In this document: in pieces, positions 90 to 4,860 of the stretch
Layout: the number at the start of each line of letters is the position of its first letter
Numbering within the stretch: the stretch's first letter is position 1
Assembly: GCA_021161545.1 (NCBI GenBank)
Contig: JAGHAJ010000024.1
Location: 1-5,783, forward strand
DNA: 5,783 nt
Source: Synergistota bacterium
Lineage (GTDB): Bacteria > Synergistota > JAGHAJ01
Direction of reading: 5' to 3'
Position numbers and translations under genes: made by a program
Notes under the pieces: generated by a model
Seen by the model: the letters and a program-made list of their open reading frames with translations, nothing else
Databases searched by the model: none
Told to the model about the DNA's origin: nothing

Positions 90-330
90 AGAATTTTCTG
101 AGCTGGCATTCGAGATAAAGCGAAAGTATGGAATTGGCCTTCAGTTAGTTGAAATAATTGGTAGTAGATGGTCTTTTGTGGCAGGAGAGGAAGACGAGCA
201 AAGTTTTCTTCCCCCTGAGCGCATTCGTGTAGGGAGGCGATTTGGCATTGTTTCTGCATGTTGGAGTAGATTACCGGATTTCGAAAAGGAGAAGATACTA
301 ACTGTGGTGAAACGATATGACAAAAGATGA
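64..330 (+). CDS. Small uncharacterised protein between the putative hydG and hydE (88 aa)
   Basis: I do not recognise a named family. The 88-residue product is soluble, with no signal peptide or membrane segment. It starts with a probable amphipathic helix (about residues 7-22), followed by a mixed segment containing GSRWSFVAGEEDE, a proline/arginine stretch LPPERIRVGRRFG, and a C-terminal charged helix ending KRYDKR. There is one cysteine (in SACWSRL) and no metal-binding Cys/His cluster. ATG at 64 is the first possible start because TGA and TAA lie just upstream in frame; the ribosome site is weak, so translation probably relies on coupling to the overlapping upstream gene. Its end overlaps the hydE start by 14 bases. 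Being locked between two neighbouring genes suggests a part in H-cluster maturation or its control, but no function is shown by the sequence itself. Confidence 0.7.
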   Translation: MGKETSTFREFSELAFEIKRKYGIGLQLVEIIGSRWSFVAGEEDEQSFLPPERIRVGRRFGIVSACWSRLPDFEKEKILTVVKRYDKR

Positions 331-1372
331 AATTTTGTATTACCTTAAAACCCATCACGAAGTGGATATGTACAGAATTTTTGAGTTGGCAGATAGAGCT
401 CGTAAGAGATACTGCGGTGATGGGGTGCATCTGAGGGGCATAATAGAGTTTTCAAATTGTTGTGTGAGAAACTGCCTGTATTGTGGTTTAAGGAGGGGAA
501 ATGGGAGGGTCCGCAGATACAGAATGACGGTGGATGAGGTTTATCAGGTTGCAAAGTACGCTGCAGATGCTGGTGTGAAGACGATAGTGTTACAGTCAGG
601 TGAAGACCCATACTATACGGTGAGTGAATTATGCAGGATGGTTGAGCGTGTAAAGGAACTTGATGTTGCTGTTACGCTTTCCCTGGGTGAGAAGAGCTAT
701 AGGGACTATAGGTCTCTAAGGGAGGCTGGGGCAGATAGATATCTGCTAAAATTTGAGACATCTAATAAGAGACTTTATGCATTTTTGAAACCAGATTCTT
801 CGTATGTAAACAGGTTTAGATGCCTTGAGTATCTCTCAGAGTTGGGGTATCAGGTGGGCTCTGGTAATATGGTAGGTTTACCCAACCAGTCTTCTGAAAG
901 TATTGCTGATGATATACTTCTATTTGGGATGCTTGAGCTCGATATGGTGGGTATAGGCCCTTTTATACCGCACCCTGATACCCCTTTGGGTAGCTTTAAT
1001 GGTAGTTCATCTTGTTTAACTGTAAAGGTCATAGCACTGACGAGGATACTTACAAGAAATGCCCATATACCTGCAACAACTGCTCTGGCCACGGTGGACC
1101 CTGAAGGTAGGAGGAAAGCCCTGTGTTGCGGTGCAAATGTTGTAATGCCTGATGTGACGCCGCTTTCATATGCAGCCGATTACGAAATATATCCAGATAA
1201 ATTGACCGAGGGTTCCATTGATGAGGTTAGGAGGCTTATTTTTTCTGTCGGTAGGTATGTTGCCAAAGGATATGGTCATAGCCTGAAGATGGGTGGAAAT
1301 GTTAACATTAGGGGTTCTAATATATCTACCTGCAATTATACTGCCACCGTCAATTTCAATCTGCTGATATGA
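317..1372 (+). CDS. hydE: [FeFe]-hydrogenase maturase HydE, radical SAM enzyme
   Basis: HydE is a cytoplasmic radical S-adenosylmethionine enzyme that works with HydG and HydF to build the di-iron subcluster of the H-cluster. The radical-SAM [4Fe-4S] motif CX3CX2C is present at Cys49, Cys53 and Cys56 within NCCVRNCLYCGLRR. HydE-typical blocks follow in order: RYRMTVDEV (67-75), VLQSGEDPYY (91-100), VTLSLGE (119-125), DRYLLKFET (140-148), NMVGLPNQ (184-191), VGIGPFIPHPDTPL (211-224) and IPATTALAT (251-259). The pattern matches T. maritima HydE closely through a TIM-barrel length of about 325 residues. The accessory C-terminal Cys cluster of the Thermotoga enzyme is absent, which is common and known to be dispensable. 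About 25 extra residues follow the usual end (GNVNIRGSNISTCNYT and on). ATG 317 lies inside the end of the small gene, with GGTGA 6 bases upstream. Confidence 0.95.
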   Translation: MTKDEILYYLKTHHEVDMYRIFELADRARKRYCGDGVHLRGIIEFSNCCVRNCLYCGLRRGNGRVRRYRMTVDEVYQVAKYAADAGVKTIVLQSGEDPYYTVSELCRMVERVKELDVAVTLSLGEKSYRDYRSLREAGADRYLLKFETSNKRLYAFLKPDSSYVNRFRCLEYLSELGYQVGSGNMVGLPNQSSESIADDILLFGMLELDMVGIGPFIPHPDTPLGSFNGSSSCLTVKVIALTRILTRNAHIPATTALATVDPEGRRKALCCGANVVMPDVTPLSYAADYEIYPDKLTEGSIDEVRRLIFSVGRYVAKGYGHSLKMGGNVNIRGSNISTCNYTATVNFNLLI

Positions 1373-1415: not shown

Positions 1416-2714
1416 ATGGACAAAGATGTGGAAAGGCTTTTACAGAGAGCGGAGAAGCCTTCTGCTGATGCAGTAAGATTGCATCCGTTATATGGTGGAA
1501 AGGTGCAGGTTGTACCAAAGGTGCCTATCAGGAGTTTGGATGATTTTGCCGTGTGGTATACGCCGGGTGTGGCTGCGGTTTGCAGGCTTATTGCCAATAA
1601 TAAAAAGAAATCCTTTGAGTACACTAACCGCATGAACACAATAGCTATTGTATCTGATGGAACGAGGGTGTTGGGTCTGGGTGATATAGGACCGGAAGCA
1701 GGCTTACCTGTTATGGAGGGTAAAGCTTTGATTTTCAAGTATCTTGGAGGAGTGGATGCTGTGCCCCTGTGTGTTTCTGCTACTGAAATTGATGAGCTGG
1801 TTTCTCTCTGTAAGTGGATTTCTCCGTCATTTGGTGGAATAAACATCGAGGATATAGAAAGTCCCAAGTGTTTTTTTCTCCTCGATAAGCTTCAGAGTGA
1901 ACTTCAGATACCTGTCTTCCATGATGACCAGCAGGGGACTGCTGTGGTTGTCCTCGCAGCTTTGAAGAGTGCCATGCGTGTGGTAAACAAAAGCCTTGAG
2001 GACATAAAAGTTGCAATGGTAGGCATGGGGGCTGCCAATGTGGCAAACCTCAGGTTGTTGTTAAAAGCGGGAGTGCGCATAGAAAATGTTGTGGCGTGTG
2101 ATAAGGATGGGATAGTTGCTGATAGTGAGGTAAGTGGCCCTTTGGGTGAACTTTTGATGGGTAGTAACCCCGAAGGTAAAACGGGTGGAATACCCGAAGC
2201 GCTTGAGGGGACCGATGTCTGTATCGCCTTTTCGAAGCCTGGTCCGGATACCATAAGGCCTGAATGGCTCTCTCGAATGAATGAGGATGCTGTTGTGTTT
2301 GCATGTGCCAACCCGATACCTGAGATATGGCCGTGGGATGCAAAGGCTTCAGGTGCAAAAGTGGTTGCGACGGGAAGAAGCGATTTCCCTAATCAGGTTA
2401 ATAATTCACTGGGATTTCCAGCGATTTTCAGGGGGGTATTGGATGTAAGGGCAAAGAAGATAACCGATGAGATGTGTATAGCTGCGGCAGATGCTATATC
2501 GGATTTTGCATACAGAAAGGGGATAGATGAGGAGCACATTGTACCCTCTATGGATGATGAGAAAATGTATGTAGAAGAGGCGATTGCAGTTGCTAAAATG
2601 GCTATGAAGCAGAAGGTTGCGCAAATTTACCTGGATGATGACGAATTGGAAGAAAAAGTGAGACGAAATATAAAAAGTGGGAAAGAGATTATGTCTAAAA
2701 TGTTTGGAATTTAG
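1416..2714 (+). CDS. Malic enzyme (malate dehydrogenase, oxaloacetate-decarboxylating), short bacterial/archaeal type
   Basis: The enzyme oxidatively decarboxylates L-malate to pyruvate and CO2, reducing NAD(P), with a divalent metal. The 432 residues match the short malic enzyme class without the phosphotransacetylase-like extension. The N-terminal domain has FAVWYTPGVA with the catalytic tyrosine (Tyr48), then LGLGDIGPEAGLPVMEGKA with the catalytic lysine (Lys103), metal-site acids in INIEDIESP (Glu145/Asp146) and FHDDQQGTA (Asp170/Asp171). The NAD-binding domain starts at VAMVGMGAANVA (199-210), followed by VVACDKDG, whose Asp229 at the end of the second strand points to NAD rather than NADP. 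GRSDFPNQVNNSLGFP (320-335) is the conserved substrate/cofactor loop. The start is fixed by GGGGAG eight bases before ATG 1416. The nucleotide loop reads GMGAAN where GAGAAG is usual. A terminator follows directly. Confidence 0.93.
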   Translation: MDKDVERLLQRAEKPSADAVRLHPLYGGKVQVVPKVPIRSLDDFAVWYTPGVAAVCRLIANNKKKSFEYTNRMNTIAIVSDGTRVLGLGDIGPEAGLPVMEGKALIFKYLGGVDAVPLCVSATEIDELVSLCKWISPSFGGINIEDIESPKCFFLLDKLQSELQIPVFHDDQQGTAVVVLAALKSAMRVVNKSLEDIKVAMVGMGAANVANLRLLLKAGVRIENVVACDKDGIVADSEVSGPLGELLMGSNPEGKTGGIPEALEGTDVCIAFSKPGPDTIRPEWLSRMNEDAVVFACANPIPEIWPWDAKASGAKVVATGRSDFPNQVNNSLGFPAIFRGVLDVRAKKITDEMCIAAADAISDFAYRKGIDEEHIVPSMDDEKMYVEEAIAVAKMAMKQKVAQIYLDDDELEEKVRRNIKSGKEIMSKMFGI

Positions 2715-2747
2715 TGGGAATCCGTGTGGATTCCCACCTTTTAATTT
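2714..2747 (+). terminator. Intrinsic terminator of the malic enzyme gene, shared with the convergent gene end
   Basis: A perfect 10-bp inverted repeat, GTGGGAATCC (2714-2723) and GGATTCCCAC (2728-2737), closes a GTGT tetraloop and is followed by CTTTTAATTTTT. The stem begins on the last base of the malic enzyme stop codon, and the T-rich tail overlaps the stop codon of the opposite-strand ligase gene. On the minus strand the sequence beyond the stem (TAAATTCC) is only weakly T-rich, so termination in that direction would be less efficient. Confidence 0.9.
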
Positions 2748-4792
2748 TTGCCTGAATGCTTCTTTGCATCTAATATATTTATTGCATTTATTACAGCTTC
2801 AACAGATGCTAATATTATATCGTCTTTTGCTGCGTGGGAGTTTGCAGTGATACCATTCTCTTCTATTTCTACATATACGTCACCGAGGGCATCTGAGCCA
2901 CCTGTTACTGCTTCTACGGAGAACTCTTTGAGTTTGAAGTTTATGTGTTCTTTTAGAAGGCTCCTTATAGTATTTAGTGATGCATCTACAGGCCCTTTTC
3001 CTATGCCTGCACCTGTGTATTCTTTTCCGTCAACGAGTAGAGATACTGTGGATGTAGCTTTTATATTATTTCCTACTACTGTGGTTATGCCTTTTAATAG
3101 TACCTTTGGTTTTATTTCTTTTTCCTTCTTTTCTGGAGAGATAAATTCCTCTTTGAGCTTGAATTTTTGTATCTTCCCTGATGCGGTCATAGGAAATTTG
3201 TCAACAAATTTTACTACCTGAGGTACCTTGAAGTCAGCAACCTTCTCCTTACAGAACGCTTTTACCTCTTCTTCTGTAAGGTTTTCACCAGGTTTTAATA
3301 TGATAAATGCTGCAACCTGCTCACCGTACTTCTTGTCTGGTATGCCAACCACTTGTGCCTCTTTTACCTTTGGGTGCTCAAGCAGCAATTCTTCTATCTC
3401 TCTGGGAGAGATATTTTCTCCACCCCTTATGATTATGTCTTTAGATCTGCCAGTTATCTTTACATATCCGTCTTCGTCCATTATGCCGATATCTCCAGTG
3501 TGGAGCCAACCCTCTTCATCTATGACCCTTCTTGTTGCGCGAGGTTCCTTGTAGTATCCTTTCATTACATTGTATCCTCTGGTACAAACCTCTCCAGGGG
3601 TGTTTACAGGACAGATTTCTCCTGTATAGAGGTCTGCAATCTTTACTTCTACATGTGCCATAGGTTTGCCAACTGTCTTTACCCTGTGTTCCAGTGTGTC
3701 ATTTGTTTCTGTCATGGTGACTCCGGGAGATGCTTCTGTAAGGCCATAAGTGATTACGACTTCGCTCATATTCATCTCGGTATTGACGCGTCTCATGACC
3801 TCTACCGGGCATGTAGCACCTGCCATTATACCTGTCCTCAGACTTTTCAAGTTAAAGCTCTTGAAATCTTGATGATTTAACATGTTTATGAACATGGTTG
3901 GAACCCCATGAACAGCTGTGCACCGCTCTTTTTCGATTGCTTTTAGAGTAGATTCGGTGTCAAATGCTGCTGATGGTAAAACAGAAGTAGCTCCATGGGT
4001 AGTGCACGCAAGGACCCCTAACACCATACCGAAACAGTGGAATAAGGGCACTGGGATGCAGAGTCTATCTTTACTTGTAAACCTCATGTGTTCTCCTATA
4101 TCATATGCATTATTGATAAGATTGTGGTGGGTGAGCATAACGCCTTTGGGAAAACCGGTTGTTCCACTGGTAAACTGTATGTTTGCTACGTCGTCGAACT
4201 TCACCTTTGACTTTATGAACTTGTAATCTTCATCTGGGTAATCCATTTGCAGTATTTCATTGAATGTAAACATACCTTCTAAATGCTTGTCACTCAGGTG
4301 TATGACGTTTTTCAGGTTTGGGAAAGCCTTGCTCTTGAGTTCTCCCAGTTTTGAACTCTTTAGCTCTGGTACAAGCTCATAAACCATTTCTGCGTACTTT
4401 AAGTTCTTATATTCATCTTCTATTATTAATGTAGATGTCTCTGACTTCTTTATCACATATTCGAAATCTCTTGTCTTGAATGCAGAGTTCACGTTTACCA
4501 GTATGGCTCCTATCTTCATGCAACCAAGCATTACGATAACCCATTCAGCGTTGTTAGTTGACCACAGGGCAACTCTGTCACCCTTTTTCACTCCCAGGCT
4601 TAATAATCCCTTTGCAAAGCTGTCTACTACATCGTTTAGGTCCTTATAGGTATATCTTTTTCCTTGATGGAACGAAACTAATGCCTCGTTGTTTGGATGT
4701 TTGCTCACTATCAGCTCAAAATCCTCTCCTATTGTTTTTCCTATGAGTGGAAAACTCCCCAGTCCGTGAAGGTAGCTTTTCTCAAGCTTCAT
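2741..4792 (-). CDS. Acyl-CoA synthetase (AMP-forming, ACSF2/FadD-like) fused to a C-terminal LeuA regulatory domain
   Basis: This 683-residue protein should activate a carboxylic acid to its acyl-CoA through an acyl-adenylate, in the cytoplasm. Residues 1-550 form a complete ANL-family ligase: P-loop FTSGTTGFPKG (207-217), YGLTEAS (349-355), GWLHTGD (428-434), the hinge/core motif GRSKDIIIRGGENISPREIE (448-467) and the catalytic lysine in MTASGKIQK (Lys540). The N-terminus (SYLHGLGSFPLIGKTIGE) and overall pattern resemble medium/long-chain ACSF2-type ligases; the actual acid cannot be read from sequence. After a lysine/glutamate-rich linker (551-561), residues 562-675 match the C-terminal domain of 2-isopropylmalate synthase, including GKGPVDAS and TGGSDALGDVYVE. 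The frame is unbroken. ATG 4792 follows AAAGGGGTG with an 8-base gap and lies behind a consensus promoter. It ends tail to tail with malic enzyme. The fusion is unusual: family ligases normally stop near residue 550. Confidence 0.93.
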   Translation of the reverse strand: MKLEKSYLHGLGSFPLIGKTIGEDFELIVSKHPNNEALVSFHQGKRYTYKDLNDVVDSFAKGLLSLGVKKGDRVALWSTNNAEWVIVMLGCMKIGAILVNVNSAFKTRDFEYVIKKSETSTLIIEDEYKNLKYAEMVYELVPELKSSKLGELKSKAFPNLKNVIHLSDKHLEGMFTFNEILQMDYPDEDYKFIKSKVKFDDVANIQFTSGTTGFPKGVMLTHHNLINNAYDIGEHMRFTSKDRLCIPVPLFHCFGMVLGVLACTTHGATSVLPSAAFDTESTLKAIEKERCTAVHGVPTMFINMLNHQDFKSFNLKSLRTGIMAGATCPVEVMRRVNTEMNMSEVVITYGLTEASPGVTMTETNDTLEHRVKTVGKPMAHVEVKIADLYTGEICPVNTPGEVCTRGYNVMKGYYKEPRATRRVIDEEGWLHTGDIGIMDEDGYVKITGRSKDIIIRGGENISPREIEELLLEHPKVKEAQVVGIPDKKYGEQVAAFIILKPGENLTEEEVKAFCKEKVADFKVPQVVKFVDKFPMTASGKIQKFKLKEEFISPEKKEKEIKPKVLLKGITTVVGNNIKATSTVSLLVDGKEYTGAGIGKGPVDASLNTIRSLLKEHINFKLKEFSVEAVTGGSDALGDVYVEIEENGITANSHAAKDDIILASVEAVINAINILDAKKHSGKN
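2768..3109 (-). other. LeuA-type dimerisation/allosteric domain within the ligase gene
   Basis: Codons 562-675 encode the two beta-beta-beta-alpha units typical of the leucine-binding regulatory domain of 2-isopropylmalate synthase (Pfam LeuA_dimer). The first unit runs from VLLKGITTVVGNN through the strand VSLLVDGKEYTGAG to GKGPVDASLNTIRSLL (598-613). The second runs from LKEFSVEAVTGGSDALGDVY to the helix ILASVEAVINAINIL (660-674). Both units look complete, and the glycine-rich GGSDALG segment that helps form the effector pocket in LeuA is kept. No part of the LeuA catalytic TIM barrel is present. Leucine or a similar molecule as ligand is an inference from homology. Confidence 0.88.
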
Positions 4793-4831: not shown

Positions 4832-4860
4832 ATTATATCTTAAAACTTTACTGTTGTCAA
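4832..4860 (-). promoter_or_regulatory. Consensus SigA promoter of the ligase-LeuA gene
   Basis: Reading the minus strand, TTGACA (4860-4855) is separated by exactly 17 bases from TATAAT (4837-4832): both hexamers and the spacing are perfect consensus. Transcription should start near 4825, giving a leader of about 32 bases that contains the Shine-Dalgarno AAAGGGGTG (4809-4801) before ATG 4792. There is no room in this leader for a riboswitch or attenuator, so control would be at initiation or at the protein. Confidence 0.85.

Follow-up and report, generated by a model that had tools for sequence, protein, structure and literature searches.

An acyl-CoA ligase carrying a LeuA-type regulatory domain in a Synergistota draft genome: evidence for a single fused gene and a proposed amino-acid control of acid activation

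The locus described here raises the question of why an acyl-CoA ligase should end in the regulatory domain of 2-isopropylmalate synthase (LeuA), and whether such a tail could place acid activation under amino-acid control. The window, meaning the whole stretch of 5,783 nucleotides that was analysed, is a complete contig of a draft genome comprising 1.58 Mb in 288 contigs, with an estimated completeness of 82%. A single open reading frame on its minus strand encodes both halves of the 683-residue protein, and all three Pfam domains detected in it lie far over their cut-offs. The features of the locus, together with those of a related gene pair discussed below, are collected in Table 1.

Table 1. 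Coordinates of the fusion gene, its domains and flanking signals in the window, and of the related gene pairs at three other loci
Feature	Position	Strand	Details
Fusion gene, acyl-CoA ligase and LeuA regulatory domain	2741..4792	-	683 aa; ATG at 4792, stop at 2743-2741
AMP-binding domain, residues 29-414	3551..4708	-	PF00501, E 1.7e-103; TSGTTGFPKG 208-217, YGLTE 349-353
AMP-binding_C mobile domain, residues 465-540	3173..3400	-	PF13193, E 9.3e-23; ends at catalytic Lys540 in PMTASGK
Charged linker, residues 549-561 (EFISPEKKEKEIK)	3110..3148	-	free-standing relatives end here; low pLDDT at 554-580
LeuA regulatory domain, residues 562-674	2771..3109	-	PF08502, E 7.9e-29, and alignments
Predicted sigma-70 promoter, TTGACA-N17-TATAAT	4832..4860	-	12/12 consensus match; 39 nt upstream of the start codon
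Ten-pair hairpin, terminator-like	2714..2737		the fusion gene and the malic enzyme gene converge on it
Synthase and barrel-ligase pair, genome G009	L173 5878-9830		uncharacterised conserved pair
Synthase and barrel-ligase pair, genome G005	L175 6347-10164		uncharacterised conserved pair
Synthase and barrel-ligase pair, genome G028	L176 11596-15267		uncharacterised conserved pair

The AMP-binding and AMP-binding_C domains follow one another in the order typical of the ANL superfamily, and the accompanying motifs are all in place: the P-loop TSGTTG..KG (here TSGTTGFPKG), YGLTE, D434 and R449 in the hinge region, and Lys540 within P....GK, which is invariant among 44 aligned ligases. Residues 4-552 align end to end with the fatty acid CoA ligase family PRK12583 / NF009233, the best NCBIfam match, with a score of 781.2 bits that falls below the curated cut-off of 832. 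Judged from these features, the protein is most likely an AMP-forming acid-CoA ligase, predicted to make thioesters at the expense of ATP and CoA. The LeuA_dimer match spans residues 559-673, corresponding to positions 18-129 of the 131-position model, and scores 100.7 bits against a cut-off of 24.9. It comprises two strand-helix units, residues 562-616 with the motif GKGPVDA (598-604) and residues 617-674 with GGSDAL (631-636) and KDDIILAS (656-663). The HMGL-like catalytic barrel (PF00682) was not detected in the protein by Pfam, so it does not qualify as a 2-isopropylmalate or citramalate synthase, and no HMGL-like gene was found in the genome. The first-pass annotation had described a ligase with all ANL motifs through Lys540, running without a break into both LeuA regulatory units and lacking the LeuA barrel, and each part of this description is borne out. 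The identity of the two halves and their fusion are thereby established as far as sequence allows.

The nearest ligase relatives are 54-55% identical to the window ligase, which forms a deep separate branch, and no characterised member of its subfamily was found. Among the loci of the named relatives (within L007-L068), a gene for an XRE-cupin regulator lies near the ligase in 49, a thioesterase gene in 18, a leuS-like synthetase gene downstream in 9, and ilvB in 6. In the 18 loci with a thioesterase, mainly from methanogens, this gene directly precedes the ligase, outlining a widespread and uncharacterised regulator-thioesterase-ligase group. The XRE-cupin regulator and thioesterase neighbours do not point to branched acids as the substrate, and since the neighbouring genes as a whole give mixed signals, they were not used to assign one.

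The reality of the join is supported by several features of the locus. Downstream of the predicted promoter, AGAAAGGGGTG stands at ribosome-binding distance ahead of the ATG, and the hairpin begins 3 nt past the stop codon, its T-rich tail being scored on the plus strand with a minus-strand reading also made. No stop or frameshift occurs near codon 555 in the contig sequence. Free-standing ligase relatives end 10-25 residues past position 546, which is where the linker and LeuA domain start, and the in-frame join lies no more than about 15 residues from where either domain naturally stops or starts. Under the codon usage of the ligase, the tail scores -1.06 per codon compared with a mean of -1.075 for pieces of the ligase itself, whereas pieces of the neighbouring malic enzyme gene fit less well (-1.29). 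That two unrelated contig pieces were joined by chance during assembly is very improbable: fragmentation of the draft and near-duplicate contigs suggestive of mixed strains would favour such an error, but the join respects both domain limits in frame, one promoter and one hairpin enclose it, and codon choice is alike on both sides. Furthermore, the tail is the only LeuA_dimer found in the source genome, and therefore no repeat was available to cause a false join. Concerning the near-duplicates, two contigs (C184, L243; C115, L244) are 95% identical over 2747 bases and carry the same aminotransferase and butyrate kinase genes, indicating that the draft genome either mixes strains or holds a duplication. 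The fusion, proposed earlier as one uninterrupted gene, thus looks real on the strength of its single frame, promoter, ribosome-binding site, hairpin and uniform codon choice, forming a putatively genuine and complete gene from promoter to terminator.

The combination appears to be rare. Matches to the best 80 ligase relatives, drawn from 84,980 species, stop at about residue 542-573, and no relative of the tail occurs in the DNA retrieved for them. Searches with the tail revealed no second fusion, either in the phylum (185 genomes) or in the 49 named genomes that contain ligase relatives. When residues 431-683 were compared with 243 and 25 further genomes, all of the matches listed stop in the ligase part or the linker, and the longer ones among them arise only by reading through stop codons. 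The genomes searched outside the phylum number about 315, and a literature search on LeuA_dimer with acyl-CoA synthetase, or on a fusion of these domains, returned no relevant paper. Absence of the fusion from every relative had been named beforehand as an outcome that would speak against it, and this is what was seen as far as the search extended; it marks the fusion as rare rather than false, because its family was represented in the search by the source genome alone and the nearest ligases are only 54-55% identical. Both parts of the fusion are known and their combination is new; a single metagenome contig, in one draft genome, is so far its only source.

The affinity of the tail lies with archaeal-type LeuA. 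Ordinary LeuA proteins of the phylum reach up to about 40% identity with it among the 185 genomes, and the best match within the 49 genomes with named ligase relatives is a methanogen LeuA-type protein of Methanosarcina spelaei (E 7.8e-27, about 45% identity); the matching methanogen proteins score as the archaeal isopropylmalate synthase subfamily (NF002085). In the domain tree the tail falls beside the archaeal-type group and outside the phylum's own LeuA, on a branch of length 1.32 compared with a median of 0.18. Derivation from the phylum's own LeuA is weakened by the mean identities (0.41 to methanogen-type LeuA versus 0.35 to that of the phylum), though the branch is long. A scan of viral contigs for LeuA relatives of the tail yielded one match, unusable for deepening the alignment. 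One supposed viral contig (IMGVR_UViG_3300010430_000687; L184 1-643) opens with the last part of a LeuA-like regulatory domain that continues in frame into charged sequence of an unrelated kind, and the contig is possibly chimeric.

Despite its long branch, the tail bears the marks of a maintained domain. Of 38 columns that are strongly conserved in the archaeal-type set, the tail agrees with the consensus in 29, compared with 9 of 38 variable columns, and of the 18 columns conserved throughout LeuA it agrees in 16; this preference for conserved columns indicates constraint and not decay. The residues lining the isoleucine pocket of the Leptospira domain, which we take to be Tyr430, Leu451, Tyr454, Ile458, Thr464, Ala466 and Val468, consistent with the chain letters, align with V602, L621, F624, A628, S633, A635 and G637 of the tail, as in ordinary LeuA. 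The alignment thus displays both the hydrophobic pocket and the helix-end motif G.GP.DA, in the form GKGPVDA. Searching with a LeuA domain profile retrieves the Leptospira domain (3F6G/3F6H) and LeuA of M. tuberculosis, and leucine or isoleucine is the ligand in this domain family (PDB 3FIG, 3F6G/3F6H). The first-pass annotation was therefore right to call the regulatory domain complete, given a PF08502 match of near full length, the 29 of 38 conserved columns and the retained pocket residues.

The second helix-end motif is KDD (656-658), in place of the STD of most bacterial LeuA, at a site that is also non-STD elsewhere (HPD in Leptospira, NPD or RED in methanogens). Together with the long branch, this substitution means that the ligand may differ. 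A sensor for something else, for example a 2-oxo acid, an amino acid of another kind or the very acid that the ligase activates, would accommodate both observations, but is quite improbable given hydrophobic pocket residues equal to those of ordinary LeuA. It is somewhat unlikely, too, that the tail has lost ligand sensing and acts purely as a dimerisation or stability module: the domain does form the dimer in LeuA and the second helix motif is changed, yet the pocket residues persist, motifs are present at both helix ends, and agreement with the consensus is concentrated in the conserved columns.

The metabolic setting provides a context in which sensing of branched-chain amino acids could be useful. 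In the genome, a branched-chain aminotransferase gene (ilvE) is directly followed by a butyrate kinase gene, and a PorA/PorC-type 2-oxoacid:ferredoxin oxidoreductase and an IorA fragment are also encoded. The predicted gene set has the profile of fermentation of branched-chain amino acids to acids with a gain of ATP, in keeping with the fermenting lifestyle suggested at first reading. An HMGL-like (LeuA barrel) gene, IlvC and an acyl-CoA dehydrogenase were not found in the 82% complete draft, which is moderate evidence of their absence. Two further contigs (C16, L157 1806-4895; C192, L169 2-1270) carry glyoxalase-like, methylisocitrate-lyase-like, LeuB-like, LeuC-like and LeuD genes, a cluster lacking LeuA that perhaps serves a pathway via a dimethylmalate- or methylisocitrate-like acid. 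Leucine synthesis by the organism from these LeuBCD-like genes was considered and rejected, as they sit with the methylisocitrate-lyase-like gene and without LeuA or IlvC. The window also holds a gene for a HydE-like radical SAM protein, an [FeFe] hydrogenase maturase (317-1372, plus strand; 320 bits, cut-off 255), and its presence suggests that the source organism metabolises hydrogen.

Structure prediction treats the two halves differently. AlphaFold2, run with 44 sequences, models the ligase confidently, with most of residues 21-550 above 90, and the predicted fold matches 4-coumarate-CoA ligase (TM 0.70/0.89). The tail has low confidence (under 60) because the alignment held no tail relatives, yet it shows the expected strand-helix order; single-sequence folding of the tail gave no confident fold. 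The C-terminal domain of ANL enzymes swings between the two half-reactions, and the tail is attached to this swinging domain, about 20 residues past Lys540, and is therefore proposed to gate the swing.

The preferred reading, to which a probability of about 0.5 is assigned, is that an acyl-CoA ligase has acquired a LeuA/CimA-type amino-acid-binding, dimerising domain and is inhibited by leucine, isoleucine or valine; the dimer, the ligand, the sign of control and the substrate are what we infer. Under this proposal, the mobile C-terminal domain of an AMP-forming ligase would have been extended at its end by the regulatory domain, and two tails would pair to form a pocket for leucine (or isoleucine or valine), the carboxylate of the ligand lying between the ends of two helices. 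As the pocket closes, it would restrain the swing of the AMP-binding_C domain bearing Lys540 and slow acid activation. When amino acids are plentiful, inhibition would spare ATP otherwise wasted on re-activating excreted acids; when they are scarce, the ligase would take acids back, to be converted through the ferredoxin oxidoreductases and the aminotransferase into 2-oxo acids and amino acids. Since re-activation at the cost of ATP would amount to a futile cycle, a leucine-type sensor on the ligase would be a sensible guard.

Counting against the proposal is the fact that LeuA control is mostly known only as inhibition of the barrel enzyme. The opposite sign, in which the ligase is activated by branched-chain amino acids, for instance to supply branched acyl-CoA for lipid synthesis or another use at times of amino-acid plenty, draws on the divergence of the tail and on the seeming lack of branched-chain amino acid synthesis, which leaves the organism no pathway of its own for end-product inhibition. 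Activation is nevertheless unlikely, as every characterised LeuA/CimA domain mediates inhibition and an activated ligase would waste ATP beside butyrate kinase. If the tail does act as a sensor of this kind, and we hold the odds to be even, the protein would be an ANL acid-activating enzyme directly controlled by amino acids via a LeuA-type domain on its mobile domain, and the domain a portable sensor outside the synthase family.

A second association of LeuA with this ligase family occurs within the phylum. In three genomes of family f2 (G009, G005 and G028), a LeuA-type synthase gene (HMGL-like and LeuA_dimer) lies immediately upstream of, and overlaps or abuts, a gene encoding a xylose-isomerase-like (IolE-type) barrel fused to an acyl-CoA ligase that is 47-49% identical to the window ligase. 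The pair in G028 is preceded by ilvH, ilvC, ilvB and ilvD-like genes, and the pair in each of the other two genomes is followed by a pyruvate:ferredoxin oxidoreductase-like gene, these names being assigned by sequence reading and BLAST among the loci. The pairing raises the likelihood that this ligase family is linked to the metabolism of branched-chain amino acids while leaving the substrate unfixed. This arrangement was rejected as a direct ancestor of the fusion, because its ligases fall in a clostridial clade and the window ligase is a separate deep branch; with ligases of different clades, the two associations probably arose independently.

Acyl-CoA ligases are controlled by transcription and lysine acylation, and to our knowledge none is under the control of an amino acid bound to the enzyme itself. 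Should the tail work as proposed, the LeuA regulatory domain would prove transferable to an enzyme of another kind, in the way that ACT domains have been transferred. An anaerobic fermenter would then provide a natural case of leucine-type control over acid activation, and the fusion would lend itself to testing how a dimerising sensor can gate the swing of an ANL C-terminal domain.

Several known systems invite comparison. The protein matches PRK12583 / NF009233 ligases across residues 4-552 with all core motifs, but these relatives end near residue 560 and lack the regulatory tail. With LeuA and CimA (NF002085; TIGR00973; TIGR00977) it shares PF08502 with both units, closest to methanogen members, whereas it lacks the HMGL-like barrel and the subdomain by which barrel and regulatory domain are joined, and the enzyme that carries the tail is a different one. 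The paired genes of the phylum likewise tie a related ligase to a LeuA-type protein, yet there the LeuA domain resides on a separate synthase and not on the ligase. The actinobacterial AAPatA proteins (ACT-GNAT) are amino-acid-sensing acetyltransferases that control an AMP-forming acyl-CoA synthetase (PMC6434083). Amino-acid control of such a synthetase through a borrowed sensor domain is common to both cases, as a prediction in that of the window; the ACT sensor of AAPatA belongs to the acetylating enzyme, which is separate from the ligase that it modifies (PMC6434083), whereas the LeuA-type sensor is part of the ligase.
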